From Desulfobacterales bacterium (GTDB taxonomy: Bacteria; Desulfobacterota; Desulfobacteria; Desulfobacterales; JALSRD01), in NCBI GenBank assembly GCA_026984935.1, contig JALSRD010000036.1:1-64000 (forward strand): a stretch of DNA of 64,000 nucleotides, written 5' to 3'. Below are positions 15,712-41,529 of this stretch, piece after piece. The position numbers were made by a program, and so were the translations under genes. The notes below the pieces were generated by a model. That model saw only the letters and a list, made by a program, of their open reading frames with translations. It searched no databases and was not told the origin of the DNA. Within the stretch, counting starts at the first letter, position 1. Each line of letters starts with the position of its first letter.

Positions 15712-15746
15712 AGCGCCTGGCCGGTGCGCGCGAAAGGGCTGGAGCG

Positions 15747-16643: not shown

Positions 16644-16656
16644 GAGAAGCCTGATC

Positions 16657-17616: not shown

Positions 17617-17617
17617 A

Positions 17618-22031: not shown

Positions 22032-22832
22032 TCACGACGTCGTGCGGGGTTTCCCGGAAGTTTCCGGCTGCGGTGCATCTATTGGCGCAGCCAGGATGAC
22101 ATACAGGTAAAGCGCGCGCGGGCCGTGGGCGCCCTCCACCATGACGGCTTCGATGTCCGCCGTCTTGCTCGGCCCGCTGATCAGGGTCATGCAGTGCGTC
22201 AGGCCGCGTTTCCCTTCATCCGCACCGGAACTCAGCAGCCGGCACAGGCGGCTGAAATCGGGAAGAAGCTGTCCGGCTTCGATAACGGCGGCGTGAATGT
22301 CGGGCAGCAGGGACACACTGCGGGGCTGGCCCGGCCGGCTGCGCATCACCAGCGTGGCCGTGTCGGCCAGGCAGTAGTCGGCGGAAGTCACGCCCACGGC
22401 GGCGGCTTCCAGGTCGCGGTAAAAGCGCCGCCGGGTGGCATACGTCCGGTCGGCGGCGGCCGTTGTGCGGCAAGTGATCGCGGCGCCGGCCAGCCGTTGG
22501 GGCAGCTCCAGGCGCGCAACGAGCGGATGCCGCCAGATCGCCACCTCGCGACGGCCGTTGCGCGGCGGCGCTTTTCGGGTGATCATGGCCGCCATGCAGC
22601 GGCCGGCCGATGCCGGGCTGTCATGCAGCGACAGGTGGATATTCAGTTCGGCGGCGGCTTCCTGCAGCCGCTGCAGCAGTTCTTCGGGACGTCCGCAGGG
22701 TCTTGCGCCTGCCGCCCCTTGGTGGTGCGGGCCCGCCTTTGACGTCGCGTGCGCGGCGGCAGGGGCGCCGCGGCCGGAGTTCGGGTGATTGAGGGCGCTG
22801 CGGATGCGGTTGAGGAAGCGGTGACGTTGCAC
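22032..22832 (-). CDS. lutC: LutC-like lactate utilisation protein (LUD domain)
   Basis: 266 residues from GTG 22832, with GGAG upstream and four bases after the LutB stop. The frame runs further upstream inside lutB, but that part lacks family similarity. The LUD-domain core includes a TSADYCLADTATLVMRS segment (norm: T.AD..IADTGT) and the C-terminal LISGPSKTADIE, typical of LutC/YkgG. An atypical proline-alanine-rich stretch (about 28-50) separates the N-terminal helix from the domain. It works with LutA and LutB in the Fe-S complex oxidising L-lactate to pyruvate. Confidence 0.83.
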   Translation of the reverse strand: MQRHRFLNRIRSALNHPNSGRGAPAAAHATSKAGPHHQGAAGARPCGRPEELLQRLQEAAAELNIHLSLHDSPASAGRCMAAMITRKAPPRNGRREVAIWRHPLVARLELPQRLAGAAITCRTTAAADRTYATRRRFYRDLEAAAVGVTSADYCLADTATLVMRSRPGQPRSVSLLPDIHAAVIEAGQLLPDFSRLCRLLSSGADEGKRGLTHCMTLISGPSKTADIEAVMVEGAHGPRALYLYVILAAPIDAPQPETSGKPRTTS

Positions 22833-22836
22833 GGGG

Positions 22837-24294
22837 TCAGCTCCGGTTTCGGTCCGCGCCGCTTTCAGGCGCTTCACGGTGCCTCCGCGGCTGCCGGCTG
22901 CAGCGGCGCAGAAACGGTCTGCGGGCCAGGGGCTCCAAGTCGCGGCTCGACGTCCAGCCGGAAAAAGGCGGCGGCAGGCGGTGCAGCATGCCGTTTTTTC
23001 GCGGCAGCAGCAACTGGCAGAAGCGGGCGCAGGCCAGGGCGGCATCATAGCGCCGCCGGTCCGAGACGATCCAGGACCAGATGTCGCAGAGGCGGCCTGC
23101 GAGGGGGTTCAGCGGACGAATCTGCCAGTACCGATCCCCCTCGGCCAGACAACTGCGCAGCGCCAGCAGCATGCGGGGGATGTCGATATCCACCGGGCAG
23201 GCCGCGCGGCAGGCGCCGCACAGGCTTTCGCCCAGGCACAGGTCGCTTGCCCGGCGAATGCCCTTCATCAGGGGCGTGAGCACCGCGCCCAGCGGTCCCG
23301 AATAAGCAGAGCCGTAGGCGTGCCCGCCGATCTTGGCGTAGACCGGGCAGACGTTCAGGCAGGCGGCGCAGCGGATGCAGTACAGGATTTCGCGAAAAGT
23401 ACGGTCGGCCAGGATGCGGCTGCGGCCGTTGTCCACGATGACCAGGTGAAAGGATTCGGGACCGTCGGTGTGGCCCGGCTGGCGCGGGCCGCCGATATAC
23501 GAAATGTAGCCGGCCATTTTCTGGGCCGCGGCGCCGCGGGCCAGCAGGCGCAGCAGGATGTCGTGGTCGGTGAGCTGCGCGGCAATGCGCTCCATGCCCA
23601 TGAAGGCAACATGCACGCGCGGCAGCGTGGTGGCCATACGGATGTTGCCCTCGTTGGAGAGCAGGGCGATGTGGCCGGTGGCGGCGCAGGCCAGGTTGAC
23701 ACCGGTGATCCCCATGTCGGCGGTCAGGAATTTTTTGCGCAGCGCCCGGCGGGCCGCCCGGGTGAGCGTCGGCGGATCGTCGGTAAGGGGGATGTTCAGC
23801 TTTGCGGCGAACAGGCGGCCGATTTCGGCCCGCGTCTTGTGAATGGCCGGGGCGATGATGTGCGAGGGATGTTCGCCGGCCAGCTGGACGATGTACTCCC
23901 CCAGGTCGGTTTCCACGGTTTCGATGCCGGCCGCCGTCAGGGCGGCGTTGAGGCCGATTTCTTCGGTGACCATGGACTTGCCCTTGACGGCCAGCTTGAC
24001 CCGGTGGCGCCGGGCGGTTTCCAGGCAGTAGGCGACGGCTTCGGCGGCGTCGGCGGCAAAGAAGACATGCCCGCCGCGCCGCGTGATGCGGTCGGCCAGC
24101 TCGGCGAGCAGCACGTCCAGGTCGGCGATGGCCTTGGCGCGGATGGCGTGGGCGCGCTGCCGCAGGGCAGGACCCTCGGGAAGCGCCTGATAGGCGGCCG
24201 CCGCGGCCGGTCCCAGGCGGTGCTGCAAATTGGCCAGGGCGCCCTGCAGCACGGGGTCGCCGATGGTGCGGTATCGGCGGCGCACTTCAGCCAT
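22837..24294 (-). CDS. lutB: LutB-like Fe-S protein of lactate utilisation
   Basis: 485 residues from ATG 24294, overlapping lutA by eight bases. An N-terminal LUD domain contains GKSMVTEEIGLN and the conserved VNLACAATGHIALLSNEGN region. It is followed by two [4Fe-4S] motifs, CIRCAACLNVCPVY and CGACRAACPVDIDIPRM, and a C-terminal tail. This architecture is that of LutB/YkgF, the electron-transferring component. The extreme C-terminus is arginine-rich and lower in similarity. Confidence 0.87.
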   Translation of the reverse strand: MAEVRRRYRTIGDPVLQGALANLQHRLGPAAAAAYQALPEGPALRQRAHAIRAKAIADLDVLLAELADRITRRGGHVFFAADAAEAVAYCLETARRHRVKLAVKGKSMVTEEIGLNAALTAAGIETVETDLGEYIVQLAGEHPSHIIAPAIHKTRAEIGRLFAAKLNIPLTDDPPTLTRAARRALRKKFLTADMGITGVNLACAATGHIALLSNEGNIRMATTLPRVHVAFMGMERIAAQLTDHDILLRLLARGAAAQKMAGYISYIGGPRQPGHTDGPESFHLVIVDNGRSRILADRTFREILYCIRCAACLNVCPVYAKIGGHAYGSAYSGPLGAVLTPLMKGIRRASDLCLGESLCGACRAACPVDIDIPRMLLALRSCLAEGDRYWQIRPLNPLAGRLCDIWSWIVSDRRRYDAALACARFCQLLLPRKNGMLHRLPPPFSGWTSSRDLEPLARRPFLRRCSRQPRRHREAPESGADRNRS

Positions 24295-25066
24295 GGATGA
24301 GGTCCCCGCGGCCGCGCGCGGCCAGTAGCTGGGCGATGTGCAGCACGTGCAGCGCAAGACCGCGGCGCCGGGCCATGCCCGCGATATGCATCAGGCAGCC
24401 GATATCACATCCCACCACGGCTTCGGCGCCGGTTGCAGCGATGTTGTCCAGCTTGTCGGCCAGCATGGCCGATGAAATTTCGGGGTACCTGACGGCAAAA
24501 GCCCCGCCGAACCCGCAGCAGCGCTGAGAATCCCGCATCTCGACGCGCACCGTGCCCCGGACGTGGTCTATCAGCTGGCGCGGCTGCCGCGAAATCCCCA
24601 GCCCGTACAGCAGGTGGCAGCTGTCCAGGTAGGTGAGGCGCAGCGTGCAGCGTGCGCCCAGCGCTTTTACGCCCAGGATGTCCACCAGGTATTCGCTGAG
24701 TTCGAAGGTCCTTTCCGCCAGGCGGCGGCTGCGCGCCAGCCAGGAGGGGCTGTCGGCGAAAAGCAGCCGATAGTGATGGCGCACCATTTGCACGCAGGAC
24801 CCCGACGGGCAGACCACGGCGTCCGCATTTTCGAAAACGCGCACGAAATGCTGCGCCGCCCTGCGGGCCTGCCGGCGGTAGCCGCTGTTGTAGGCCGGCT
24901 GCCCGCAGCAGGTCTGGCCCGGCGGACAGTCCAAAGGAATGCCCAGGCGTTTGAAGACGGTCACGACGCCGGCGGCCACACCGGGATGGAAGGCATCCAC
25001 CAGACAGGGGACGAAGAAGCTCACCGGGTGCCGGGCTTTCGGCAGTTTTGCGTGCGCGCCGGTCAT
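24287..25066 (-). CDS. lutA: LutA-like CCG-domain Fe-S protein of lactate utilisation
   Basis: 259 residues. Two cysteine-rich CCG domains, as in LutA/YkgE and heterodisulfide reductase HdrB: CCGQPAYNSGY near residue 53 and CCGFGGAFAVRYPEIS near residue 182. Each has a preceding lone Cys (FVPCLVDAF, YLDSCHLLYG). First gene of the lutABC-methyltransferase operon. It diverges from bamB across a 241-base gap that holds the bam promoter and operator. A perfect TATAAT lies on the minus strand within that operator, so lut expression may be linked to the same regulator. No clear Shine-Dalgarno site precedes its ATG. Confidence 0.87.
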   Translation of the reverse strand: MTGAHAKLPKARHPVSFFVPCLVDAFHPGVAAGVVTVFKRLGIPLDCPPGQTCCGQPAYNSGYRRQARRAAQHFVRVFENADAVVCPSGSCVQMVRHHYRLLFADSPSWLARSRRLAERTFELSEYLVDILGVKALGARCTLRLTYLDSCHLLYGLGISRQPRQLIDHVRGTVRVEMRDSQRCCGFGGAFAVRYPEISSAMLADKLDNIAATGAEAVVGCDIGCLMHIAGMARRRGLALHVLHIAQLLAARGRGDLIHG

Positions 25067-25307: not shown

Positions 25308-27335
25308 ATGAGGTACGCCGAAACTGGGTTTAATTTGGAAATCGATCTGACCCGGGGAAACATCGAAAAAGTCGCCACCGACCCCAAGGACACCGCCATG
25401 CATCTGGGGGGGCTGGGCACCAACGCCAAGATCCTGTGGGACCGTGTTCCCCCGGAGGTGGATCCCTTTTCTCCGGAAAACCTGCTGATCTTCAGCACCG
25501 GGCTGTTGTGCGGCACGCCGGCCACGGGCTGCAACCGCACCATCGTTGCCACCATTTCCCCCCAGACGCAGCTGCTGGCGTATTCGATGATGGGCGGCTT
25601 CCTGGCCCCGGAGTTGAAATACGCCGGCTATGACAAGGTGATCTTCCGCGGCAAGTCGCCGGGCCTGGTTTATCTGTGGATCCACGATGACAAGGTGGAG
25701 ATCCGGGACGCTGCACACCTGCAGGGGATGGGGACGTTGGAGACCGCCGAACGGATTCGCGAGGAGCTGGGAGAGCCCAAAGCCCAGGTGGCGGCCATCG
25801 GCCTGGCGGGGGAAAAGCGGGTCTATTACGCTTCCATCGAACACGGCCGGTCCAGCGCCAGCCGGGGCGGAATCGGCGCCGTGATGGGGGACAAGGGCCT
25901 GAAGGCCATCGCCGTGCGCGGCACCAAAGATGTCAACATCGCCAGTCCCGAAAGGTACTTCGAGCTTTGCAACGAAGTGCTGAAATACATCCAGCACCGC
26001 GCGGAAAACCCCATCAAGGGCGTTCCCCCCATTCTGGCCGGGATCGGGTCGCCGCAGGAGATGGCCATCCATGACGAAAAGTGGCACACCACCAGTTTCG
26101 CCTGGGGCAATGCGCGCCACCGCAGAAAGGACTTCTGGACCAAAGAAATCGCCAGGCAGTGGCGCGAGACCCAGGAAAAGGCGGTGGAGCGGCTGATCAG
26201 CTGCTACAACTGCCCCATGAAATGCGGGGCGATCATCAGCTACCCGGCGCTGGGGGTTTCCAAGTACATGATGAAATGCTACTCGAAGCTCACCTACGTC
26301 ATGGGGGCCATGGCGGACGACCTGGAGTTCGGTTTCAAGATCGCCGGCCTGGCCCAGGAGTACGGCGTGGACGGGTACACCGCACCGCAGGTCATGGCTT
26401 TCGCCGTCGAACTGTACGAGGCCGGTATCCTGACGGACAAAGAATTGCCGGGGTTTCCGGCCGACAACCAAGAGCGTTTTTTCTGGCTGCTGGAAAAAAT
26501 CGTCCGGCGGGAGGGCATCGGCGAGGTGCTGGCCAAGGGCACCTACTGGGCGGCACGCGAAATCGGCAACGGAGCGGAAGCCTACGACCGCAACACGATC
26601 AAGAAACATGAGCAGATCCCCATCAAGCTGGGCATGCTCAACCCGGTCTACTTCCTGATGTATTCCACCGGTGCGAAGATCAACATCACCCAGATCGAGG
26701 GCCAGATGCCCCAGGTGCCTTTTGCCACGCGCGAGGAGCGCGAAGAATTCGTGAAAGACTGGATCCAGGCGCCCAATGAAAAGATCAAGGAATTTTTCGT
26801 CAACTGGGAGCTGCGCGGCGAAAATTCGTTTCCCTATTACCCGACGCCTGAAATGACCTGTGAAATCGTCGAGTGGCAGGAAACCATGCACTACATCGAT
26901 GACGCCGTCGGGCTGTGTGCGGGGCTGTCTTCCTTTCCCATAAAACCCCCCTACCACATCCACAATATACCGCAATTCATCGCCGCGGCGACGGGGATGG
27001 AGATGGACGAAGATAAGCTGTGGGAGATCACCCGCCGGAACCGCACGCTGATCCGGGCTATCAATGCCAGAAGGGGCCTGCGTCGCAAAGACGAAAAGCC
27101 CCCCCAAGACCATTGGAAGAAACGCTTTCCCGAATTGGAGGCCAAGCTGCTGGACAGCTACTACCGGTTCAAGGGCTGGAACGAAGAGGGGATCCCCACC
27201 AGAGAGACGCTGGCAAAGCTGGGCCTGGATTACGTGGGTGCGGATTTGATGGAAAGGGGCATCCTGGCGGACGGCGAGGATGCGGCATCCGCCGAGGCAC
27301 CGGCGGAAGCTCCGGCGCAAAAAGAGACGAATTGA
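25308..27335 (+). CDS. bamB: Class II benzoyl-CoA reductase, tungsten active-site subunit
   Basis: 675 residues, aldehyde:ferredoxin oxidoreductase family. The [4Fe-4S] ligands Cys299, Cys302 and Cys306 (CYNCPMKC) and a fourth, Cys537 (GLCAGLSSF), are in the family positions. The N-terminal domain carries the pterin-binding segments (HLGGLGTN, MMGGFLAPELKYAGYDK). Family knowledge: BamB binds a tungsten-bis-pyranopterin and reduces benzoyl-CoA to cyclohexa-1,5-diene-1-carboxyl-CoA without ATP hydrolysis. Next-gene content (bamC-F) identifies it over other AOR-family enzymes. A short alanine/glutamate-rich tail ends the protein. First gene of the large operon. Confidence 0.95.
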   Translation: MRYAETGFNLEIDLTRGNIEKVATDPKDTAMHLGGLGTNAKILWDRVPPEVDPFSPENLLIFSTGLLCGTPATGCNRTIVATISPQTQLLAYSMMGGFLAPELKYAGYDKVIFRGKSPGLVYLWIHDDKVEIRDAAHLQGMGTLETAERIREELGEPKAQVAAIGLAGEKRVYYASIEHGRSSASRGGIGAVMGDKGLKAIAVRGTKDVNIASPERYFELCNEVLKYIQHRAENPIKGVPPILAGIGSPQEMAIHDEKWHTTSFAWGNARHRRKDFWTKEIARQWRETQEKAVERLISCYNCPMKCGAIISYPALGVSKYMMKCYSKLTYVMGAMADDLEFGFKIAGLAQEYGVDGYTAPQVMAFAVELYEAGILTDKELPGFPADNQERFFWLLEKIVRREGIGEVLAKGTYWAAREIGNGAEAYDRNTIKKHEQIPIKLGMLNPVYFLMYSTGAKINITQIEGQMPQVPFATREEREEFVKDWIQAPNEKIKEFFVNWELRGENSFPYYPTPEMTCEIVEWQETMHYIDDAVGLCAGLSSFPIKPPYHIHNIPQFIAAATGMEMDEDKLWEITRRNRTLIRAINARRGLRRKDEKPPQDHWKKRFPELEAKLLDSYYRFKGWNEEGIPTRETLAKLGLDYVGADLMERGILADGEDAASAEAPAEAPAQKETN

Positions 27336-27351
27336 GCGGAGGGTGCAAACC

Positions 27352-27897
27352 GTGACGGATGAGAAGAAAAAGAAGATCATCAAAACGATCCGCATCGATG
27401 TGGACAAATGCAATGGCTGCCGGGCATGTGAGGTCATCTGTTCCGCCTTTCACGCAGAGCCGAAGTACAGCAGCAACAACCCGGCGCGGTCCCGGATCCG
27501 TGTGATCCATGAACCCCTGAGGGACATCTATATCCCCGTTTACGCGGGGGAGTACACGGTGGCCGAATGTGCCGGACGCGACAAATACACCATCGACGGC
27601 AAAGAATACGATGAGTGCGCCTTCTGCCGGGCTTCCTGTCCGTCACGGGTGGAGTTCAAGGAACCTGATTCCGGCCTGCCCCTGAAATGCGACATGTGCG
27701 AGGGCGAGGAGGAGCCCCTGTGTGTGCGCTGGTGCCTCGCCGACGCCCTGATCTACGAGGAGCGCGAGGAAGAGGTCGCGGAAGAAGACGTGTTGACGGA
27801 GCAGGAGGACCTGGAGCTCGGCCTGGAGTCACTGGCCAAAAAATACGGGCTCAAGCAGATCATAGACACCGTGGCCCGGATGTCAAAAGAAGACTGA
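27352..27897 (+). CDS. bamC: Benzoyl-CoA reductase electron-transfer subunit, ferredoxin-like
   Basis: 181 residues from GTG 27352, with GGAGGG eight bases upstream. The frame is open earlier, inside bamB, but without a signal. Several [4Fe-4S] motifs: Cys20, 23, 26 and 30 (CNGCRACEVIC), CAFCRASCP and CDMCEGEEEPLCVRWC. It forms a complex with BamB and carries electrons to its cluster, as in the Geobacter Bam complex. The C-terminal third is highly acidic and helical. The gap to bamB is only 16 bases. Confidence 0.92.
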   Translation: MTDEKKKKIIKTIRIDVDKCNGCRACEVICSAFHAEPKYSSNNPARSRIRVIHEPLRDIYIPVYAGEYTVAECAGRDKYTIDGKEYDECAFCRASCPSRVEFKEPDSGLPLKCDMCEGEEEPLCVRWCLADALIYEEREEEVAEEDVLTEQEDLELGLESLAKKYGLKQIIDTVARMSKED

Positions 27898-27934: not shown

Positions 27935-29086
27935 GTGGAAACCGTAGCCCCTTTCAAAGAAGTCGTCGATGAAATCAAGGATGCCGGCGGAGACCCTTTT
28001 AAACTGTGCTTTCAATGCGGATTGTGTGATGTGGTCTGCCCATGGAACCGGGTCAGGCCCTTCAGCATGCGCAAGATCATCCGCCAGGCCGCCTTCGGCC
28101 TGACCGAGATCGACGGCGAGGATATCTGGCGCTGCACCACCTGCGGCAACTGCGTCAGCCAGTGCCCGCGGGGCGTCGACCAGATCCAACTGGGAGTCTC
28201 CATACGGCGGGTGGCAACGGAATATGAAGTTTTCCCGGCTTCGGTGCGTTCCGCCCGCAGTGCGCGGGCCAGCATCATTTCCGAGGGTAACCCGCTGCAG
28301 GGAGAACGCGGCAAACGTGCGGACTGGGCCAAGGATCTGCCCGTGAAAACCTTTGCCGAGGGCATGGAGGTCTTATATTTCGTCGGATGCTACCTCAGCT
28401 ATGACCCCAGGATGAAGAAAGTGGCCGTCGCCACGGTCGACATCCTCAACCGGGCGGGGGTCGATTTCGGCATACTGGGCGCCTCCGAAAGCTGCTGCGG
28501 CGAAAGCATCCGCAAGACCGGCAGTGAGGAGGTCTTCAGAAGGCTGGCCAAAGACAACATCAAGACCTTTATCGACCACGGTGTGAAGAAGATCGTCGTG
28601 TCATCGCCGCACTGCTACCACACCTTCAAAAACGAATACCCCGAATTCATGGTGAATTTCGAGGTGGTGCATTTTGCCCAATATCTATATGAACTGGTTC
28701 AGGCGGGCCGCCTCGCGCTGACCGGCGAATATGCCGGCAGGGTCGCCTATCACGACCCCTGTTACCTGGGCCGGCACAACGGCGTCTACGACGAACCGCG
28801 CGCGGTGCTGCAGATGATACCGGGCCTGGAGCTGATCGAGATGACGGATGCCCGCAAAAACAGCCTCTGCTGCGGCGGGGGCGGCGGCAGGATCTGGATG
28901 GACACCCCCAAACAGGAGCGGTTTTCCGATCTGAGGCTGAAACAGGCCAGAGAAGCCGGCGCGCAGGTGCTGGCGACCTGCTGTCCGTATTGCATCACCA
29001 ATTTCGAGGAAAGCCGGCTGAATTTGGAGTATGATGAAGTCCTGGAGGTCAGGGACATTACCGAAATCGTCCGGGAAGTGATCTAG
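27935..29086 (+). CDS. bamD: Bam complex heterodisulfide-reductase-like subunit (CCG domains)
   Basis: 383 residues, GTG start after AGAGGA. Two N-terminal [4Fe-4S] motifs (Cys25, 28, 31, 35 and Cys67, 70, 73, 77) are followed by two CCG domains: FVGCYLSYDPR with ESCCGESIRKTG, and HDPCYLGRHN with SLCCGGGGGRIW. The layout equals HdrD/HdrB-type fusions. Within the Bam complex it is proposed to link the HdrA-like BamE to the reductase. Confidence 0.92.
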   Translation: METVAPFKEVVDEIKDAGGDPFKLCFQCGLCDVVCPWNRVRPFSMRKIIRQAAFGLTEIDGEDIWRCTTCGNCVSQCPRGVDQIQLGVSIRRVATEYEVFPASVRSARSARASIISEGNPLQGERGKRADWAKDLPVKTFAEGMEVLYFVGCYLSYDPRMKKVAVATVDILNRAGVDFGILGASESCCGESIRKTGSEEVFRRLAKDNIKTFIDHGVKKIVVSSPHCYHTFKNEYPEFMVNFEVVHFAQYLYELVQAGRLALTGEYAGRVAYHDPCYLGRHNGVYDEPRAVLQMIPGLELIEMTDARKNSLCCGGGGGRIWMDTPKQERFSDLRLKQAREAGAQVLATCCPYCITNFEESRLNLEYDEVLEVRDITEIVREVI

Positions 29087-29117: not shown

Positions 29118-32100
29118 GTGGAAAAAGAACAGATCAAGGGACTTTGCGAAAGTTCTGGGAGCCGAAATTTTGGCGACGTACTGGTGGTCGGGGGAGGGGT
29201 TTCCGGTATTCAGGCCTCCCTGGACCTGGCCACGGCCGGTTTCAAGGTTTACCTGGTGGAGCAATCGCCGGCCATCGGCGGCCACATGGCCCAGCTGGAC
29301 AAGACCTTCCCGACCAACGACTGCTCCATGTGAATTCTGTCTCCCAAACTGGTCGAGGTCGGCCGGCATCCGAACATAGAGGTCCTGACGTACACCGAAG
29401 TTGAAAGCCTGTCGGGCCAGGCGGGGAATTTCACCGTTCAGCTGGTGAAAAAGCCCCGGTACATTATCGAAGACCGCTGCACCGGGTGCACGACCTGTGT
29501 CGAGTACTGCCCGGTCGAGTACCCGGACCCGTACAATCAGGAAATATCGCAGAACAAGGCGGTCCACATTTACTTTTCGCAGGCCATCCCCCTGGTCACC
29601 TATATCGATGCGAGCTGCCTTTTTCTCAAGGAAAAGAAATGCCTGATCTGCGAAGGCGTATGCAAGAACAAGGCCATCGATTTCAGCCAGACGGAACAGA
29701 CCGTCGCGGTCAATGTGGGGGCCGTCATCCTGGCGCTGGGCTATGCGCCGTTCGACCCGCGGGTGCGGGATGAATACGGCTACGGCCGGATACAAAACGT
29801 GGTTACCAGCATGGACTTCGAACGCCTGCTGTGTTCCACCGGTCCGTACGAAGGCCGGATCCTGCGCGCATCCGACAAAAAGCACCCCCGCCGGATCGCC
29901 TGGATCCAGTGCGTCGGCTCCCGCCGGGTCACCCCCGGCGACAACAGCTACTGTTCGGCCGTGTGCTGCACCTACACCCAGAAGCAGGTGATTTTGGCCA
30001 AAGAGCATGACGCCGAGGCCCAGTGCACCGTATTCCACAACGACATCCGCTCCCACGGCAAGGATTTCGAACGCTATTACCAGCGAACCGCACAGCTTCC
30101 CGGCGTCCGCTTCATCCGCAGCTACGTCTCCATCGCCGGTGAGGACCCCCAAACCGGGAACGTGACCGTAAGATATGCCACCGACGACGGCGTGAAGGAG
30201 GAGGAATTCGACATGGTGGTGTTGTCCGTCGGATTGAACCCTCCGGCGGATTATGGACAGCTGGCGCACAAGTTCGGCATCACGCTCGATGAACACGGGT
30301 TCTGCGAGGCGGATTCCGCCAATCCCATGCAAACCAGCCGTGCCGGAATTTTCGTAAGCGGCGGTTTCCAGGGGCCCATCGACATCCCCGAGTCGGTTTT
30401 CAGTGCCAGCGGCGCCGGTGCCCAGTGCGCCCAACTGCTGGACCACCGGAGGGGGAAACTGACCACCGAAAGGCAGTATCCGCCGGAGAAGGACGTTTCC
30501 GGCGAAGAACCACGCATCGGTGTTTTCGTGTGCCACTGCGGGGCGAATATCGGCAGGATCGTGGATGTGCCGGCCGTCGTCGAATATGTCCGCAGCCTGC
30601 CGCATGTGGTCTACGCCCAGGAACAGCTGTTCTCGTGCGCCACCAATTCCGCCGATGAAATCACGGAGCTGACCAGGGAAAAAGGGCTCAACCGGGTGGT
30701 CGTGGCGGCCTGCAGCCCACGGACGCTGGAGCCGCTGTTCCGCGACACGCTGCGCGAAGCGGGCATCAACCAGTACTACTGCGACATGGCCAATATCCGG
30801 GAGCACTGCTCCTGGGTGCATGCCAAGCAGAAGGACGAGGCCACGCAAAAGGCACGCGACATCATCCGCATGTCGGTGGCGCGCGCCTGCCATCTGGAGC
30901 CGTTGCAGGAATTCGAACTGCCCGTCAACAAGGCGGCGCTGGTGGTGGGCGGCGGTATCGCCGGTATGACCTGCGCCCTGTCAATCGCCAACCAGGGCCA
31001 CGCGGTCTGTTTGGTCGAAAAAGAGGCCGATCTCGGCGGAACCGCGCGCCGGCTGCACTACACCCTGGAAGGGCTGGATGTCCAGGCCTACCTGCAAGAC
31101 CTCATCGAGCGGGTCTACCGGCATCCCCTGATCCAGGTGAGCCACGCGGCAACCATCACCGCGGCGACCGGCTATGCCGGCAATTTCGTCACCCGGGTGA
31201 AGACCGAAGGCCGGATCAGAGAGGTCAAGCACGGCGCCGTCGTGCTGGCCGTGGGTGCCGATGAATACCGTCCCGGCGAATACCTCTACGGGCAGGACGA
31301 CCGCGTGCTGACCCAGCTGGAGCTTGAGGAGCGCATCAGCAGGGAAGAAGAGGCGCTGATGCGCGCCCGCACGCTGGTGATGATCCAGTGTGTCGGCTGC
31401 CGCAATGAGGATCGCAATTACTGCAGCCGGGTGTGCTGCAGCCATGCCGTGAAAAACGCCCTGAAGCTGAAGGATTTGCGGCCGGAGATGGACATCAGCA
31501 TTCTCTTCCGCGACATGCGCATGTATGGCCTGCGCGAGGACTACTATCGTGAGGCGGCGGAAAGGGAAGTCAAGTTCATCCGCTGGCAGCCCGCGGACCC
31601 GCCGCAGGTGGAAGCCATCGCCCGGCGCGGCAAATCGATTCTGCAGGTCACCGTGGCCGATCCCATTTTAGGGCAGCGGCTGGAAATCGACACCGATGTG
31701 CTGGCTTTGTCCGCCGCCGTGATCCCTTCCGCCGGCAGCCGGGAAATCGCGCAGCTGTTCCGCGTGCCGCTGGATGCAGACAGCTTTTTCAAGGAGGCGC
31801 ATGTCAAGCTGAGACCTGTGGAGTTTGCCACCGAAGGCGTCTTTCTGTGCGGTACGGCGCACTATCCCAAGCATATACCGGAAGTCATCAACCAGGCTTA
31901 TGGTGCGGCCGGACGGGTGCTGACGCTGCTTTCCCATGACAAGATCATCGCCTCCGGCTCGGTCTGCGAGGTGGATGAGAAGAAGTGCATCGCCTGCGGC
32001 GCATGTGTCGCGGCCTGTGCCTATGGCGTCATCGAATTGCGTGCGACGCGCAAGGGGGAAAAGGCTGTTGTCAACCCGGTGATCTGCAAAGGCGACGGCC

Positions 32101-32198
32101 TGTGCAACGCCCTGTGCCCCACCGGGGCGATTTCGCTGAAGCACTTCACCGATGAGGAGCTTTTGAGCCAGATCGATGCAGCCGTTGATGAGGTTTAG
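29118..32198 (+). CDS. bamE: Bam complex HdrA-like flavoprotein, selenoprotein (UGA read at 29331)
   Basis: 1026 residues if TGA 29331-29333 is read as selenocysteine (residue 72). Start GTG 29118 follows GAGGAA. The stop interrupts the conserved HdrA segment NDCSM-U-ILSPKLVEVG, where relatives carry Cys or Sec, and the frame then runs on for 955 codons. Domains: first FAD site (about 15-50); [4Fe-4S] motif from Cys121; HdrA CHCG motif (472-475); second FAD site VVGGGIAGMTCA (about 608-619); and a two-cluster ferredoxin (about 957-1001). It is in effect a fused double HdrA. In HdrA proteins the flavin bifurcates electrons, and here it is thought to drive low-potential benzoyl-CoA reduction. 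A naive annotation would split this gene at 29333. Confidence 0.92.
29349..29366 (+). promoter_or_regulatory. SECIS-like hairpin in bamE
   Basis: CTGGTC (29349-29354), loop GAGGTC, GGCCGG (29361-29366): a six-pair stem counting G-U pairs. The loop starts 22 bases after the UGA, inside the usual bacterial range. It resembles the AGGUCU loop recognised by SelB in E. coli fdhF. Confidence 0.65.
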
Positions 32199-32282: not shown

Positions 32283-33128
32283 ATGAGCGGTAGTCTCGAA
32301 TTTAGACCGAAAATACTGGGTTTCGTGTGCCACTGGTGAGGATACGGCGCTGCTGACCTGGCTGGAGTTTCCAGACTGCAATATACCACTGAAATGAGGC
32401 TGGTGCGCGTCATGTGTTCCGGCAGGGTCGACCTGGAGTTCGTGCTGCGGGCTTTTGCCAACGGCATGGACGGGGTGTTTATCGTCGGCTGCCGCTTAAA
32501 TGAATGCAACTACATCACCCACGGAAACTACAACGCCCTGAACATGGTGTCGTTGTGCCGCCGGATCATGGCGCATGCCGGGGTGAACCCGGACCGCCTG
32601 GGGATCCGGTTCATGTCCGCCGCCGACGGCATTCTTTTCGCCGATGCCAACGATGAATTCGTCCGTCAAATAAAGGCGCTGGGGCCGCTGGGCCAAAGCG
32701 AGGGAATCGACACGCAAGATCTGAAGGCCGGTCTGGAAAAGGCCAGAAAACTGATCCCCTACATCAAGGTCATGAAAAGGGAAAAGCTGGCGCTGCACCT
32801 AGACAGCGAGGAAGCCTACCAAGAGCTCTACAGCCGTGAAGAGGTTGACAGCCTGCTGGATGAACCCGTATCGTACTACATCGACCCGGGCAAGTGCCGG
32901 GCCTGCATGATCTGCGCCCGAAGGTGTCCGGTGGAGGCCATTTCCGGCGGCAAGAACCGCATTCACGTCATCGACCAGGAGAAGTGCATCAAATGCGGCA
33001 CCTGTTTTACGGCCTGCCCCGATCGCTTCGAAGCCGTCGAAAAGATCTCCGGCGCTTCCGTTCCACCGCCTGTTCCCGAAGAGGAAAGGCAGATCAAGAG
33101 AAAGCGCCGGCAGGTGCCGGCCGGCTGA
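32283..33128 (+). CDS. bamF: Bam complex MvhD-like subunit, selenoprotein (UGA read at 32337)
   Basis: 281 residues if TGA 32337-32339 is read as selenocysteine (residue 19). ATG 32283 has AGGTGA six bases upstream. The in-frame stop lies in VCHW-U-GYGAADLAG, matching the [2Fe-2S] motif CxxC of MvhD/VhuD hydrogenase delta subunits, with Sec in place of the second Cys. The rest of the domain (MCSGRVDLEFVL, VGCRLNECNY) follows. The C-terminus carries two [4Fe-4S] motifs (CRACMICARRCP, CIKCGTCFTACP). It would pass electrons into BamE. The shorter frame beginning at ATG 32394 lacks the cofactor site. Confidence 0.92.
32362..32374 (+). promoter_or_regulatory. SECIS-like hairpin in bamF
   Basis: CTGG (32362-32365), loop AGTTT, CCAG (32371-32374), with a possible fifth A-U pair. 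The loop begins 27 bases after the UGA. A second CTGG at 32358-32361 offers an alternative register. The stem is shorter and the loop less typical than in bamE. Confidence 0.5.
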
Positions 33129-33164: not shown

Positions 33165-34016
33165 ATGGGGCGTGCAGCGGAGTTGAGGAACCAACCATTG
33201 AATGCAGGCAGGAAAACCAGCGCCTATCAGGCGCTGCAGTATAAAGGCGGCGCCCGGAAAACCCGGTCCATCGAACTGATCGGGGAAGAGCCGCTTTTGA
33301 TCCGCGTCGACGATAAGCCCTATTCCGTGGTGATGCGCACGCCCGGTGAAGAACTGTTCCATGCGGCGGGGTTTTGCCTGGGAGAGGGGATCGTCGATGC
33401 CCCCGATGACTTCACCACCATCGGCTTTTGCAAGGATCTGGATGCCAATGTCGTCGATGTCCGGCTGAAACCGGCGCGCGCCGGCAGGATCCGCGATATT
33501 CTTGAGCGCCGAAGCTTCGTCAGCCAGACCAGCTGCGGCATCTGCGGCAAGGAGATGATCGCGGATCTGAACCAGATATTGACGCCGGCCGAAGATGGTT
33601 TTGTGATCGCAATCGAGCACATTTTCGATTGCGCCGACAAGCTCGTCGAAAGCCAGAGCTACTATCCGCGAACCAAGGGGTCCCACGCGGCCCTGATATT
33701 CGACGACCGGCTTGAGATGATCGCCTTCGCCGAGGATGTCGGCCGGCACAATGCGCTGGACAAGGCCATCGGCAAAGCCTTCATGAACCGCAAACTGCCC
33801 GGCGCCGGCCTTTTGGTGATGTCTTCGAGAATCAGCTACGAGCTGGTTCAAAAGGCCGCCCGCGCCCACCTGCCGATGATGGTCAGCAAATCGCGGCCGA
33901 CTTCCCTGGCCGTCGAAATGGCGCGCGCGCTCAACATGACGCTGGCCTGTGCCTTTGACCAATCCGAGCTTCTCGTGGTCTGCGGCCAACAGCGCATCGC
34001 AAAAGCCCTGGACTGA
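33165..34016 (+). CDS. fdhD: FdhD-family sulfur carrier for pterin-cofactor enzymes
   Basis: 283 residues from ATG 33165; TTG codons at 33184 or 33197, nearer to GAGG, are alternatives. The redox-active CxxC is Cys124-Cys127 (SCGICGKE), and the cofactor-binding AEDVGRHNALDK follows near residue 189. FdhD carries sulfur from cysteine desulfurase to the molybdenum/tungsten bis-pterin cofactor of formate dehydrogenases. No formate dehydrogenase is encoded nearby. It lies 36 bases after bamF within the operon, so maturation of the BamB tungsten cofactor is a plausible client. That is an inference. Confidence 0.88.
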   Translation: MGRAAELRNQPLNAGRKTSAYQALQYKGGARKTRSIELIGEEPLLIRVDDKPYSVVMRTPGEELFHAAGFCLGEGIVDAPDDFTTIGFCKDLDANVVDVRLKPARAGRIRDILERRSFVSQTSCGICGKEMIADLNQILTPAEDGFVIAIEHIFDCADKLVESQSYYPRTKGSHAALIFDDRLEMIAFAEDVGRHNALDKAIGKAFMNRKLPGAGLLVMSSRISYELVQKAARAHLPMMVSKSRPTSLAVEMARALNMTLACAFDQSELLVVCGQQRIAKALD

Positions 34017-34209: not shown

Positions 34210-34992
34210 TTGAAAATTCTCACAACCGTTAAAAAAGTCGTCGATGTGGAATTGAACATCCACGTGAAGGACGGCGCCATCGTCGAGGACGGGCTGCAGT
34301 ATGTGATCAACGCCTGGGATGAAAACGGCGTGGAGACCGCCGTGCAGCTGAAGGAAGACAGCGGTGCGGAGACGACGCTGGTCAGCATCGGCGGCGGGGA
34401 CAACACCGATGTCATCCGCCGCTGCTACGCCATGGGCATCGAAAGCGGCATGCACATCGATGACCCGGCGCTGGAAAAGGCCGACGCCTTCATTTATGCC
34501 CGGGTGCTGCAGAAGGTTTTCGAAGCCGGCGACTACGATCTGGTCATCACCGGTAAGCAGGCCCAGGACACGGACAACGGTCAGACCGGGATCATCCTGG
34601 CCGAGTACCTGGGCCTGCCGTGCGTCAGCAATGTCATCGGCATCGAAGTGTTGGACGACAAGCATCTCAAGGTATCCCGGTCCGGGGATGCCGGAACCGA
34701 AATCGTCGCGCTGGAGCTGCCCGCCGTGGTGACGGTGGATGTCAGCATCAACGAGCCGCGGCTGCCCCAGATGCGCGGCCTGATGATGGCCAAGAAAAAG
34801 GCCATCGAAAAAATGGATCTGACGGCCCTGGGCACTTCCGCGGACGAAATCGGGTGCGCGGCGCCCAAATCGGAGATCGTCGCGTTCATGGCCACCGAGA
34901 AGCGCAGCGGGGGGCGGAAGTTCGAGGGCGATGCCGCCGAAATCACCGCCCGGGTCGTGGATCTGCTGGCCAATGAGGCCAAGGTGCTGTAG
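34210..34992 (+). CDS. etfB: Electron transfer flavoprotein, beta subunit
   Basis: 260 residues from TTG 34210, with AGGAGGG immediately upstream. It begins MKILTTVKKVVDVELNI and contains the EtfB adenine-nucleotide loop (DLVITGKQAQDTDNGQTG, about 116-133). Together with EtfA it accepts electrons from acyl-CoA dehydrogenases. The 193-base gap after fdhD contains no terminator and no recognised gene, so co-transcription with bam is likely. Whether the complex bifurcates cannot be decided by inspection. The adjacent EMO gene favours a conventional quinone-linked role. Confidence 0.9.
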   Translation: MKILTTVKKVVDVELNIHVKDGAIVEDGLQYVINAWDENGVETAVQLKEDSGAETTLVSIGGGDNTDVIRRCYAMGIESGMHIDDPALEKADAFIYARVLQKVFEAGDYDLVITGKQAQDTDNGQTGIILAEYLGLPCVSNVIGIEVLDDKHLKVSRSGDAGTEIVALELPAVVTVDVSINEPRLPQMRGLMMAKKKAIEKMDLTALGTSADEIGCAAPKSEIVAFMATEKRSGGRKFEGDAAEITARVVDLLANEAKVL

Positions 34993-35055
34993 CCGGCGCG
35001 CACCCCGCCGGTGATTACCGAAAACCAACCGGATGTATACGGAGATAAGCATATC

Positions 35056-36015
35056 ATGGCCAAAGTACTTGTAGTTGCAGAGATCAAGCAGGGCGTGCTG
35101 AAGGGCAGCACCGCCGAACTTTTATCCAAGGCCAAAGCCATCGGGGCCCAGACCGCCGTGGTGGCGATTGGCAGCGATATCGAATCATTGCTCCCCGACC
35201 TGGTGGGCGCCGGCGCAGATCAGCAGTATATCGCCGACGATGCGCGCCTGGCGCTTTTTTCAGCCGGCCCGTTTGCCGCCTGCGTGGTCGATGCCGCCCG
35301 GCAGTTTGACGCCGACCAGGTCTGGTTCGGTTTCTCCGAAAGCAGCAAGGCCGTGGCGCCGCGGGTGGCCGCACAGCTGGATGCCGCCTGCGCCACCGAA
35401 ATCACCGACGTGATGTTCGAACAGGGGCACATCGAAGTCATCCGGCCGGCCATCACCAACAAGGTGCTGCAGCGCGTCCGGATCAATACCGAGCGGATGG
35501 TGGCCGTGGTGCGGGCCGGTGCCTTTGCGGCGGACCCGGAGCTTGCCGGCAGCGAGAATGTCGTCAGGCTCGCGCCGCCGCCGGCCGATTTGAAGGCCGT
35601 GATCAAGGAGCTCGTTTCCGAAGCCGGCAGTGAAATCGACCTGGCCGACGCCGACATCGTTGTTTCCGTGGGGCGCGGCGCCCGGAACCAGGACGGTGTC
35701 GAGCTGGTGAAAGCACTGGCCGAAGAGCTGAATGCCGGTTTCGGTGCTTCGCGCGCCATGGTGGACGCCGGCTTCATGGCCCACAACAAGCAGGTCGGCC
35801 AGACGGGCAAAATCGTGGCCCCCACGCTTTACATGGCCATCGGGATCTCGGGTGCCATTCAGCACCTGGCCGGCATGAACGGCTCGAAAGTGATCCTGGC
35901 GGTGAACAAAGACCCCGAGGCCCCCATATTCAATGTGGCCGACTACGGTATCGTCGGCGACCTGTTCGAAGTGGTGCCGATTCTGCGGCAAGAGATCAAG
36001 AAAATCAGAAGCTGA
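35056..36015 (+). CDS. etfA: Electron transfer flavoprotein, alpha subunit
   Basis: 319 residues from ATG 35056 (MAKVLVVAEIKQG); a frame start at 35011 lacks a ribosome-binding site. The C-terminal FAD domain is complete: GRGARNQDGVELVKALAEEL, then AHNKQVGQTGKIVAP, then GISGAIQHLAGMNGSK and NKDPEAPIFNVADYG. It forms the heterodimer with EtfB. 112 bases separate it from the EMO gene, its likely membrane acceptor. Confidence 0.92.
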   Translation: MAKVLVVAEIKQGVLKGSTAELLSKAKAIGAQTAVVAIGSDIESLLPDLVGAGADQQYIADDARLALFSAGPFAACVVDAARQFDADQVWFGFSESSKAVAPRVAAQLDAACATEITDVMFEQGHIEVIRPAITNKVLQRVRINTERMVAVVRAGAFAADPELAGSENVVRLAPPPADLKAVIKELVSEAGSEIDLADADIVVSVGRGARNQDGVELVKALAEELNAGFGASRAMVDAGFMAHNKQVGQTGKIVAPTLYMAIGISGAIQHLAGMNGSKVILAVNKDPEAPIFNVADYGIVGDLFEVVPILRQEIKKIRS

Positions 36016-36127
36016 AAACAGCGGCCGGGGCGGACTGCCCGCCGCGTGTTTTCCCGGCCGTCGGCTTTTTCTGAAATTCCGGTTGCCGGCCGGCGGCGGC
36101 CGGCTTCCGTTACGGCGAGGTAGCCAT

Positions 36128-38236
36128 ATGAACCCCATTGCCATGTCGCTTCTGCTCACCGTTGCGCTGGGCGTTTTCGGGCGCACGATGGCCCGCAAAA
36201 TCCAGCTGCTGCGAGCGCTTGCGCCGGCTGACAGGACCAATCACCTGAAGCAGCGCCTGGCGAATATGTTTGTCTTCGCCATCGGCCAGAAACGCCTGAT
36301 CGGAAGGGCCCGCGAGCGCAGCTCGGGCATCATGCATGCCTTGATCTTCTGGGGGTTCTGCGTGCTGCTGATCCGCAGCCTGACGCTGTACGGACAGGGG
36401 TTTTACGAGGGGTTTCAGCTGCCGTGGCTGGGCGGTGGACATCTGGCGGGCTATCTTTACCTGGCCGTGAAAGATGTCATGGAGGGGATCGTCCTGCTGA
36501 TGGTCCTGTATGCGGTTTTCCGGCGCGCCGTGCTGAAACCCCGGCGGCTGCACAATACTTTCGAAGCCTATCTGGTACTGGCCTTGATCGGCATTTTAAT
36601 GGTGTCCGATCTGCTGCTGGACGGCGCGCGCTACAACCTGGTTCACCTCTACCACAACGCCAAGACGATTCCCTTTTTCAACCACCCGCGGTACGGGTCG
36701 GAATTCCTCTGGACACCGGTGGCGGTCGGCGCATCCGCCCTGATTTCGGGATTGGGCGCCAGCGCCAACGCCGCCATCCTGGCCACCATGTTCTGGCTGC
36801 ACATCTGCACCCAGCTGGTCTTTTTGAACATCCTGCCTTTGGGCAAGCATTTTCACGTGATCACCGCACTGCCCAACGTCTTTCTGAAGAGCCTGGGCTA
36901 CCCCCACGAAAAGGCGCAGCTGCTGGACCTGGAGGACGAGGCCGCCTGGGAAGATGAATCCCTGGGCGTCAACCACATCCATCAGCTCAACTGGAAGCAG
37001 GGGCTGGACCTATACACCTGCACCGAGTGCGGCCGCTGCAAGGAGGTCTGCCCGACCTACACCACCGACAAACCGCTGAACCTGTATGAGTTCAATGACA
37101 AATTGAAGCATGCCCTGCTGGCCAATGCCGACAACATCATCCGGCGGTCCGGGCTGGCGGCCGCGCGGGCCCGCTGCGGAGACGACGAACAGGCTGCCGG
37201 GCTCGCAGAGCAGATGTCCGCCTTGAACAGCGAAAAACAACTGATCGGCGACATCATCGCCGCAGACACGCTCTGGGCCTGTACCACCTGCCGCGCCTGC
37301 GAAGAGGTCTGCCCGGTGACCATCGAACATGTGCCGCGCATCATTGCCATGCGCCAGGGGCAGACCTTGATGGCGGAGGCCTATCCCAAAGAGCTGAACC
37401 CGGCTTTGAAGGGCCTCGAGCGCAACGGCAACCCCTGGGGCATCGGGTATGACAAGCGTGCCGACTGGGCCGACGGGCTGGGTGTTCAAACCATGGCCGC
37501 AGATGCCGACGTCGATTACCTTTTCTGGGTGGGCTGCGCCGGCTCCTTCGACGACCGTGCCAAAAAGGTCTCCCGCAGCCTGGTGAAGATTCTGCAGCGG
37601 GCGGGTGTTCGTTTTGCGATCCTGGGCGTGGAGGAAAAGTGCACCGGCGATTTTGCCCGGCGCGTGGGCAACGAAATGCTGTTTCAGATGGCGGCACAGG
37701 AAAACATCGCCACTTTGAACCGCTACAAGGTCAAAAAAATCATCACCGCCTGCCCGCATTGCCTCAATACACTGCGGCACGAATACCCGCAAATGGGCGG
37801 AAATTACGAAGTGATTCATCATTCCGAGTTCATCGCCCAACTCGTCAAAACAGGCCGAATCGAACTGCAGCCGTCGCTTGCCGGTGCTCTGGCCTACCAT
37901 GACCCCTGTTACCTGGGGCGCTACAACGAAATATTCGAGCAGCCGCGTTCGATCCTGGCGTCCGTCTGCCAGGACGCGCCCAGGGAACTCCCGCGGCACG
38001 GCCGCGAAAGTTTCTGCTGTGGCGCCGGCGGCGGCAGAATGTGGATGGAAGAGACCATCGGCAAGCGCATCAATCTGGAACGCGCCGAAGAGATTGCCGG
38101 CCAAAACGTGGCCCACGTAGCGGTGGCGTGCCCCTTCTGCCTGACCATGATCGAAGACGGCATGAAAGAGCTGGAAAAGGAAGAGCTCATCAAAACCCGC
38201 GACATCGCGGAACTGGTGGCCGAAAGCATGGCCTGA
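36128..38236 (+). CDS. Membrane Fe-S/cytochrome b oxidoreductase (ETF:menaquinone oxidoreductase, EMO type)
   Basis: 702 residues from ATG 36128 (GAGG upstream). The N-terminal third is a NarI-like membrane domain with about six helices and histidines suited to b-type hemes. Two [4Fe-4S] motifs follow (Cys298, 301, 304, 308; and CTTCRACEEVCP from Cys385). Two CCG domains then appear: FWVGCAGSFDDRAKK, and HDPCYLGRYN with SFCCGAGGGRMWMEE. This architecture, directly after etfBA, matches the EMO enzymes proposed to pass ETF electrons to (methyl)menaquinone in syntrophic and sulfate-reducing bacteria. It probably oxidises the ETF reduced in ring-fission-product beta-oxidation. A DsrK/HmeD-like role is the alternative. 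Confidence 0.87.
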   Translation: MNPIAMSLLLTVALGVFGRTMARKIQLLRALAPADRTNHLKQRLANMFVFAIGQKRLIGRARERSSGIMHALIFWGFCVLLIRSLTLYGQGFYEGFQLPWLGGGHLAGYLYLAVKDVMEGIVLLMVLYAVFRRAVLKPRRLHNTFEAYLVLALIGILMVSDLLLDGARYNLVHLYHNAKTIPFFNHPRYGSEFLWTPVAVGASALISGLGASANAAILATMFWLHICTQLVFLNILPLGKHFHVITALPNVFLKSLGYPHEKAQLLDLEDEAAWEDESLGVNHIHQLNWKQGLDLYTCTECGRCKEVCPTYTTDKPLNLYEFNDKLKHALLANADNIIRRSGLAAARARCGDDEQAAGLAEQMSALNSEKQLIGDIIAADTLWACTTCRACEEVCPVTIEHVPRIIAMRQGQTLMAEAYPKELNPALKGLERNGNPWGIGYDKRADWADGLGVQTMAADADVDYLFWVGCAGSFDDRAKKVSRSLVKILQRAGVRFAILGVEEKCTGDFARRVGNEMLFQMAAQENIATLNRYKVKKIITACPHCLNTLRHEYPQMGGNYEVIHHSEFIAQLVKTGRIELQPSLAGALAYHDPCYLGRYNEIFEQPRSILASVCQDAPRELPRHGRESFCCGAGGGRMWMEETIGKRINLERAEEIAGQNVAHVAVACPFCLTMIEDGMKELEKEELIKTRDIAELVAESMA

Positions 38237-38343: not shown

Positions 38344-38472
38344 ACTTGAAATTTGATGCCGATTCCGGTTGTATTTCGCATGGACAGAATAGATGCCCTG
38401 ATCATAAGCCGCCGTTGAGGCGTGCGGTCCTCCCGGCAGTGCCCGCGCCCCGCACGGCTTCCGGGAAATGCG

Positions 38473-41400
38473 ATGCCCTTTGACCCCCCCATGCGGCGCT
38501 CCAGGGCCCTGCAGGCCCTGTTTTTGGCGATGATGCTCGTGGTCATGTGTGCGCTGGTGCTGCTTTTTTTAGCCTATCGGCACGAAAAGGCCAGAACCCT
38601 GCACGCGCTTCAAAGCGCCTATATCGAGCGCGTGGATGCGCTGGACCGCTGCCTTTTTCTCGCCCGCGAAAACGTCTCGCTGATGGAGGACTGGGCGCGC
38701 AGCTACTGGCAGGATGCCGGGCGGCGCGACGAACCGCCGGGGCTGGTGAACCTGCTGCAATACGACCGCGGCGGCGACTTCTTCGAAATCAGCAGGGCCG
38801 CCATAGAAACGCTCGGCGATCCCACCGGCAATGTTTTCGGACCCGGACGCCCGTTGGGGCGCAGTCCCCAATTCATTCGCGAACTCAATCTGGTTGCCGG
38901 GCTGATGCCGCTTTTACGGGTGGCCGTCAGCGACTCCGGCGTCATATCCGCTGGTTATTTTTTTTCCGTGCGGCATGTTTCCGTCATTTATCCCCATCAG
39001 CCGCTGAAGGTCCTTTGCGGTTCCGGTGCAACGGGCCCCCGGCTGAAAGCAAAGGTTGACGTTTTTTTTCGTTCCCACCGGGAGCTGTACGGCCATGCCG
39101 CCCGCAACGGCTACTGGACCGGCGTTTACAGGGGATGCAGCGGCAATGGGCCGGTGGTGACTTTTGCCATGCCGGTTTATGCCGGCAAACGTCTGCTGGG
39201 GCTGCTGGGCGCGGATGTCAAGCTGGCCTTGCTCGCGCGCTTCGTGGCCGGCTTCAGGGGGCCGGACAGCCGGTTGATCCTGATCGGCCGAAACGGACGG
39301 CTGCTGATGGACTCGGCGGATGGTGCGCCCCTTCCGCGGCCCGTGAATACGCCCTTTGAAGAGCGCCTGCCGCCGGCGCTCCGGAAACTCGCCCCGCAGA
39401 TCATCAACGGCAGCGCTCCTCTGACCCTGGCGGCCGGCGGTTACCACGTCGTGTCCCGGCGCCTGCGGTCGGCCCCCTGCAGCCTGGTTCACATCATCAG
39501 CGACAGCAGCCTGCGGTCCTACCTTTCCATGACCTGGGGCACTTTTACGATCCTGGTGCCCATGTTGCTGGCCCTGCTGCTTTTGGGCTATTTTGCCATG
39601 CGCCGCAGCCAGGCCGAACAGGCGCTGCTGGAAACCCAGAAGCAGTGGCAGGAGTTCGTGGAACACTCGGCCATGGGGATTTACCGGGTGCACGATAACG
39701 GCAGCTTCATTTTTGCCAACCCTAAAATGGCCCGGCTGTTCGGCTACCCTTCTCCCGGAGAATTCATGTCCGCGGTAACGGAAGTCGCCTCTTTGTACAT
39801 TGAACCCGACGAGAGGCTCGCCAACCTGGAAACCCTCAAAAAAGATGGCTTCATCGACGGTGCCGAGGTGCAGCTGCGGCACCGGGACGGCCGCACCCTA
39901 TGGGGGCAGCTGTACGTCCGGCAGATCAAGAAGGGTGGCAGTCGCTGCTATGAAGGCTGCATGATCGACGTGACCGCGCGCAAATCCGCCGAATTTGCGC
40001 TGCGTGAAAGCGAGGAGCGCAACCGCGGCCTGATTGAACTTTTTCCGGACGCCGTGCTGGTGCACATTAAGCTGGAGATCGTCTACATCAACCATGCCGG
40101 TGCCCGCATGTTGGGTGCCCGCAAACCTGCCGAGCTGATCGGGCGCTCGGTCATGGACATCGTTCATCCCGACTATCAGCGGCGTATCGAAGAACGCCTG
40201 GCAAGGGTGGAATCCAGCCGGCTGCCCCTGACACCCGAGGAACAGCGCTATGTACGCCTGGACGGGCAGGTCATCGATGTGGAGGCCACCGGCGTGCAGG
40301 TGGCCTACGGAGGGCGGCCGGCGGTCATCAGCGTGCTGCGGGACATCACCGAGCGCAAGCGCCAGGAAGCCGCGCGCTACAAACTGGAGCTGCAGCTGCA
40401 GCAATCCCAGAAGATGGAAGCCATTGGAACACTGGCCGGCGGGATCGCGCACGACTTCAACAACCTCCTGATGGGCATCCAGGGAAACATTTCCCTCAGC
40501 CTGCTGGAAATCGACGCCGGGCACGCCGCCTACGAAAACCTGAAAAACATTGAAACCTACATACGCCGGGCCACACGCCTGACCCAACAGATCCTGGGGT
40601 TTGCCCGTGGCGGCAAATACCAGGTGGAAAGCCTGGACCTGAACCGTCTGATCCAACAGAGCGCGCGCATGTTCGGCCGCACGCGCAAGGAGATTCGCAT
40701 CGCGCTGCACCTTGACGGGACGCTGCAGGCGGTCAAAGCGGACCGCAGCCAGATCGATCAGGTGCTCTTAAACCTGTTTGTCAACGCCTGGCAGGCGATG
40801 CCCGCCGGCGGGCGCCTGGATATCTCCACTTGTAACGTGTCGCTGGATGCGGATTTTGTGCAGCCCTACGGCCTTGCGCCCGGCAAATACGTCAAGGTGT
40901 CGGTGACCGACAGCGGCGTCGGGATGGATGAAGAAACCCGGCGGCGGATCTTCGAGCCTTTCTTCACTTCCAAGTCCATGGGCCGGGGGACGGGACTGGG
41001 GCTGGCTTCCGTTTACGGTATCGTCAGCAACCACAAGGGGGCCATTACCGTCAGCAGCCAACCGGGGCATGGCACGACCTTCGACATCTATCTCCCGTCC
41101 GCGGGTAAAATCACCGCGCGGCCGGCCGGGGGAAAAGCGCCCGCCAGACAGATGGAGGGCCATGAAACCATTCTATTGGTCGATGACGAGCAAATGATCA
41201 TTGACGTAGGGAAAAAATTGCTGGAGAGTATGGGATACCATGTCCTGGTCGGCAAAGGGGGCCGTGCGGCGCTTGAAATATACAAAAAGAGCGGCCCGCG
41301 GATCGACCTGGTGATTCTCGATATGATCATGCCGGATATGAGCGGCAGTCAAACCTACGACCGGTTGAAACGCCTGGATCCGGACGTCAAGGTGCTTCTG

Positions 41401-41529
41401 TCCAGCGGCTACAGCCTGAATGACAAGTCCGTGGACATCCTGCACCGCGGCGGCAACGGGTTTATCCAGAAGCCTTACGACCGCCTCGAGGTGGCGGCCA
41501 AAATCCGTGAAATCCTGGACCGCGGGTAG
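38473..41529 (+). CDS. Hybrid sensor histidine kinase, extracytoplasmic sensor-PAS-PAS-HK-REC
   Basis: 1018 residues from ATG 38473; ATG 38491 is an alternative. Order: a membrane helix (about 15-38); a large periplasmic sensor region, probably a double Cache fold; a second helix (about 355-380); two PAS domains (from about 390 and 515, with [10 protein letters not shown] and a [14 protein letters not shown] end); a histidine kinase with H-box [11 protein letters not shown] (about 655) and ATPase motifs ([25 protein letters not shown]); then a receiver domain with the phospho-Asp in [13 protein letters not shown]. No HPt domain or partner regulator is adjacent. Same architecture and H-box as the kinase at 57754-60672. 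The ligand is unknown. Confidence 0.88.

Follow-up and report, generated by a model that had tools for sequence, protein, structure and literature searches.

The analyzed DNA (the window; 64,000 nucleotides of a Desulfobacterales genome) contains the class II benzoyl-CoA reductase genes bamBCDEF in order, followed by a gene for an FdhD protein (Table 1). Judged by its sequence, the ORF that opens this series is a true BamB, and the cysteine that ligates its tungsten (W), C324 (corresponding to Cys322 of Geobacter metallireducens), is the same in all of 16 BamBs compared. In both bamE and bamF an in-frame TGA occupies a Cys-type position (contexts NDCSMU and FVCHWU, respectively), because of which plain ORF calls truncate the two genes; BamE and BamF are probably selenoproteins. 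A search of the window detected no bamGHI in the cluster (a BamH query matched the BamF domain alone), and the benzoyl-CoA reductase complex may be completed by bamGHI elsewhere in the genome.

Table 1. Features of the bam-fdhD region (positions in the window)
Feature	Position	Strand	Basis
bamB	25308-27335	+	full-length 4Z3W match, AFOR_N/AFOR_C, W-ligand Cys324
bamC, ferredoxin-like BamB partner	27280-27897	+	position, tblastn matches to bamC elsewhere
bamD, HdrBC-like	27935-29086	+	gene order conserved in other clusters
bamE, HdrA-like; in-frame TGA (probable Sec) at 29331-29333	29118-32198	+	
bamF, MvhD/ferredoxin-like; in-frame TGA (probable Sec) at 32337-32339	32283-33128	+	
fdhD, 283 aa	33165-34016	+	PF02634, TIGR00129, only FdhD of the genome
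CxxC loop codons, Cys124 and Cys127	33534-33545	+	translation, alignment
AEDVGRHNALDKAIG motif, residues 189-203	33729-33773	+	alignment; contains GRHN core
etfB, next after fdhD; TTG start behind AGGAGG	34210-34992	+	
etfA	35011-36015	+	gene order as in L227, G186
Fe-S oxidoreductase, CCG domains, likely ETF partner; start uncertain, overlaps etfA	35933-38236	+	

Several other genes were noted around the cluster. LUD-domain and CCG Fe-S proteins that are like split LdhH parts are encoded on the minus strand at 22032-25066, divergent from bamB, and a hybrid PAS histidine kinase with a receiver domain, a possible aromatic sensor, lies just 3' of the cluster (38422-41529). Further upstream, at 10343-12753, lie genes for a zinc alcohol dehydrogenase and for proteins of the enoyl-CoA hydratase type, which plausibly supply BamQ and BamA/BamR functions. 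Together with ABC transporter genes of the branched-chain type (14497-19053), they give the window the appearance of an aromatic-degradation island.

The product of fdhD is a genuine member of the FdhD family. It matched FdhD-NarQ (PF02634) in a Pfam search with an E-value of 9.4e-61, scored 148.9 bits with NCBIfam TIGR00129 (curated cut-off 140.9 bits) and aligned with the solved E. coli FdhD (4PDE) over 239 residues (4e-27). According to the translation and alignment, the loop reads QTS-C124-G-I-C127, and the claim of an earlier note that Cys 124 and 127 are both intact was correct, including the numbering. EDVGRHN and SSRISYE are also kept; the GRHN motif presumably forms part of the GDP/bis-MGD nucleotide site of FdhD. 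The protein resembles the FdhD/FdsC/NarQ family (E. coli FdhD 4PDE, R. capsulatus FdsC) in family assignment, CxxC loop, GRHN and length, whereas its gene is situated in a bam operon on a contig without a formate dehydrogenase (FDH) gene. The 36-base distance from bamF given in the earlier note was also found here: the last base of bamF is 33128 and the first of fdhD is 33165, both genes being on the plus strand. Downstream come etfB, etfA and the gene for an Fe-S oxidoreductase of the CCG type. A simple scan of the plus strand from bamF to etfB, which is weak evidence, detected no terminator-like site; fdhD is presumably co-transcribed with the bam genes.

The genome (assembly 99.45% complete) has a single fdhD, which settles the copy number that the earlier note had left to be counted. 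That note had also reported no FDH near fdhD, and this holds for the whole 66.6-kb contig (C36), on which none was found. A Sec-FDH (motif VDHCARLUHS) is encoded on a separate contig (G000:C107). Since the sole fdhD shares the genome with this Sec-FDH, it would be unsafe to take BamB for the only client of FdhD, and its dedication to BamB here is unlikely unless the FDH matures without FdhD. Other Mo/W genes are also present: PF00384 had seven matches (the Sec-FDH and six others), and the AFOR family had eleven including BamB, i.e., ten further ones.

To see how often fdhD accompanies bam genes, we used a phylum sample of 297 genomes, among which BamB was present in 79 and FdhD in 60 of these 79. 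Linkage was defined as fdhD ≤10 kb from bam genes, the latter located by tblastn in FdhD neighborhoods. It was observed in 28 of the 60 genomes, representing about 13 family codes, against a chance expectation of ~1% per genome, or about one genome (a target of roughly 30 kb in 3 Mb). The binomial tail is near 1e-37 if genomes are treated as independent, which they are not, but the linkage does extend over about 13 families. Several arrangements were seen. FdhD is encoded between bamD and bamE in G125, G177, G169, G224, G010, G024 and G266 (the last with bamB on another contig); on the same strand after bamF or the bamGHI region in the window, G293, G186, G285, G225 and G267; convergently after the bam cluster in G282, G118, G089, G103, G295, G184, G053 and G196; and upstream of bam in G176, G097, G095 and G172 and, beside a second bamB, in G200, G021 and G223. 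The window order bamF-fdhD-etfB-etfA-FeS is identical in L227 and occurs in G186 with bamH inserted.

In a scan of a genome-contig collection, fdhD was found in 23 of 80 BamB loci, many of the contigs being short or truncated. By record titles as deposited, which provide the MAG taxonomy of these loci, they include Bacillota (L196, L198), Dehalococcoidales/Dehalococcoidia (L197, L200), Chloroflexi (L262), Latescibacterota (L203) and Desulfotignum (L260). L196, L198 and L262 have fdhD immediately between bamC and bamE, a place where a bamD was looked for without success. AOR_L018 matches antisense to bamB were discarded as a query artefact, the longest ORF having been on the wrong strand. The earlier note had asked whether fdhD stands beside bam genes elsewhere; the answer is strongly positive, with several positions and phyla represented, and the placement is not unique to this strain, as it recurs in about 13 families of the phylum plus other phyla.

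FdhD inside an expressed bam cluster has been described before for benzene-degrading consortia (ORM2a, Peptococcaceae BF). The proteome of ORM2a contained FdhD from within the cluster (PMC13101534), and in BF fdhD was transcribed, under the label bamI in the transcript table (PMC5852087). Both accounts list fdhD between bamD and bamE, the one on BF through its gene numbers, whereas in the window it follows bamF. A search of mostly openly accessible literature yielded no systematic fdhD-bam survey and no proposal of FdhD for BamB.

In a quick tree of 73 FdhDs (no bootstrap, several long branches uncertain), bam-linked proteins were polyphyletic, with 10 parsimony changes, at least 6 of them forced by supported branches, versus 22.6 for shuffled labels. 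Linkage was therefore gained, or lost, several times. These data bear on the possibility that fdhD merely hitch-hikes, with no functional link, in a mobile aromatic-catabolism island. The island-like character of the window and the differing position of fdhD among lineages would suit such a neutral scenario; however, different FdhD lineages were recruited repeatedly, linkage persists within FdhD clades, and insertion between bamD and bamE occurred in several families, so we consider it very improbable. In addition, 12 of the 28 linked genomes possess a further, unlinked FdhD that is 21-49% identical to the bam copy, consistent with a division of labor. A bam-related role of FdhD is thus supported both by the recurrence of linkage in 28/60 genomes, with several independent recruitments, positions and phyla, and by the coexistence of the bam copy with a second FdhD in 12 genomes. 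The suggestion in the earlier note of a dedicated maturation of BamB therefore stands as far as a bam-related role is concerned, but not as to dedication, since the only fdhD of this genome is presumably needed by the Sec-FDH.

The main rival of a recruitment to BamB is that FdhD serves FDH alone and that its placement in the bam regulon co-induces FDH maturation, with reducing equivalents from aromatics leaving as formate. This is consistent with the known biochemistry of FdhD (PMC6239281, PMC10609526), with the Sec-FDH of the window genome, with the retention of the GRHN motif in all 28 linked FdhDs and with FDH-type matches in 77 of the 79 BamB genomes. However, FDH genes almost never adjoin fdhD in BamB genomes: by the same 10-kb test, a true FDH was the neighbor in 1 of 72 loci (L151, 56% identity). 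The apparent FDH neighbors in L162 and L168 proved to be other DMSOR-family genes (28-31% identity). In a set of 80 BamB-negative genomes, FdhD was present in 55, and coordinate comparison placed an FDH-type gene ≤10 kb from fdhD in at least four (G026, G056, G060 and G101); the true number may be higher, as the cut-off used can miss enzymes of the FdnG type. The retention of a second FdhD in 12 genomes and the location of fdhD inside bamBCDEF in several lineages also argue against FDH as the only client.

A further argument comes from G125 (99% complete). Its fdhD is embedded in the bam cluster (bamD-fdhD-bamE), and the FDH profile and PF00384 revealed no FDH in this genome; its sole two PF00384 genes are acetylene-hydratase-like and NuoG-like. 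Because G125 is without FDH, its FdhD has a non-FDH client, unless an FDH is missing from the assembly. As TIGR01591 at strict cut-offs may overlook FDHs of the FdnG type, the argument from FDH absence was limited to the PF00384-checked G125 and G266, leaving out G152, G316 and G317. G266, initially taken as a decisive FDH-free case, was downgraded, as two congeners carry Sec-FDH and the absence may reflect incompleteness. Taken with the points above, maturation of FDH alone appears to us a serious but rather unlikely explanation.

The client in G125 could also be the Cys-ligated acetylene-hydratase-like enzyme. More generally, FdhD might mature another Mo/W enzyme induced by aromatics, for example the DMSOR protein resembling acetylene hydratase or one of the other AORs. 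Candidates are available in the window genome (its ten additional AFOR-family and seven PF00384 matches), a DMSOR-type gene scoring under the FDH cut-off stands at a distance of 0.2 kb from fdhD in G312, and in Cetobacterium FdhD is found beside a YdhV-type AOR (PMC13328260). We regard this explanation as improbable, however, because bam is the recurrent neighbor, whereas among the 45 unlinked fdhD genes other AORs adjoin 3 and DMSOR genes adjoin 7. As a separate observation, in G125:C25 (L086), G007:C34 and G140:C42 a gene for a ~700-aa acetylene-hydratase-like/FDH-like DMSOR-family protein adjoins a BamB paralogue that is 53-64% identical to the window BamB.

The earlier note had further proposed a sulfuration of BamB by FdhD. 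FdhD binds bis-MGD and was crystallized with GDP (PMC6239281); the BamB cofactor is the nucleotide-free W-bis-MPT (PMC12096430). Published work identifies the sixth W ligand of BamB as water (PMC12096430) or, tentatively, as carbonyl (PMC11858030), with no sulfur in structures or EXAFS, although a labile sulfido may be compatible with the published ligand data. We also examined the loop cysteines of the 28 bam-linked FdhDs, all of which retain the GRHN core. CxxC is present in 8, one Cys in 16 and none in 4, which ruled out a conserved sulfur-transfer cysteine as their shared trait. Within the FdhD family the CxxC loop characterizes groups I/II and is not universal, and the loop cysteines are non-essential in R. 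capsulatus (PMC6239281).

Moreover, no FdhD was found in 19 of the 79 BamB genomes, several of them >97% complete, and a profile built here detected no fdhD in the bam loci of eight FdhD-less genomes. In these 19 genomes BamB can thus be made without FdhD. The same absence argues against a need of FDH for FdhD, since most FdhD-less BamB genomes have FDH, and such lineages may be able to mature both enzymes without FdhD. FDH-type genes, in many cases for Sec-FDH, were seen together with no detectable FdhD in G007, G012, G045, G050, G081, G086, G111, G140, G144, G170 and G258; such genomes are concentrated in families f17 and f22. Organisms having FDH but no fdhD were already known (PMC10609526). 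Sulfuration of BamB is unproven, and the lack of a sulfur sixth ligand, the 4/28 linked FdhDs without loop Cys and the 19/79 genomes without FdhD speak against it.

The explanation that we favor, although with only about even confidence, is that FdhD was recruited to the maturation or delivery of the W cofactor for BamB and is shared with FDH in this genome. According to this proposal, fdhD would have become part of the bam transcription unit because class II benzoyl-CoA reductase depends on the ability of FdhD to handle the cofactor. FdhD would bind the tungsten cofactor, sulfurate or protect it, and help load it into apo-BamB, and this sole copy would presumably also sulfurate the cofactor of the Sec-FDH on the other contig. 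A permanent terminal sulfido on BamB would not be needed, as the contribution of FdhD could be W-cofactor delivery. A physical interaction of FdhD with BamB and an effect on BamB activity would be expected. It is also possible, but in our view doubtful, that BamB, and perhaps the whole Cys-ligated YdhV/BamB branch of AORs, needs FdhD, with sulfur delivered to W-bis-MPT as a labile terminal ligand that disappears during purification or in a transient insertion step; FdhD would then not be a factor for FDH only. Sulfuration of BamB to a stable ligand is a bolder and undemonstrated version of the favored reading.

Two known systems are close to this proposal. The tungsten FDH of Methylorubrum, MeFDH1, strictly requires fdhD both to be active and to incorporate W (PMC13197769). 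FdhD of this MoeA1-MobB-FdhD pathway acts on a tungsten cofactor, as proposed here, but its client is a bis-MGD formate dehydrogenase, unlike BamB. In the C. somerae WOR41 locus, which also contains MoeA, FdhD adjoins a Cys-ligated YdhV-type enzyme of the AOR family, and the authors suggested that FdhD might be required for YdhV-type WOR (PMC13328260). That enzyme belongs to a membrane-associated WOR class, whereas the candidate client in the window is a benzoyl-CoA reductase. For YdhV itself, no cofactor chaperone had been identified as of PMC9103625.

For the supply of cofactor to AOR-family tungsten enzymes, the recurrent pairing of fdhD with bam names a candidate together with organisms in which it can be tested. 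If the proposal is true, the role of FdhD would reach beyond formate dehydrogenase. It would also bear on which sixth ligand the W of benzoyl-CoA reductase carries, and it may aid heterologous production of the class II enzyme.
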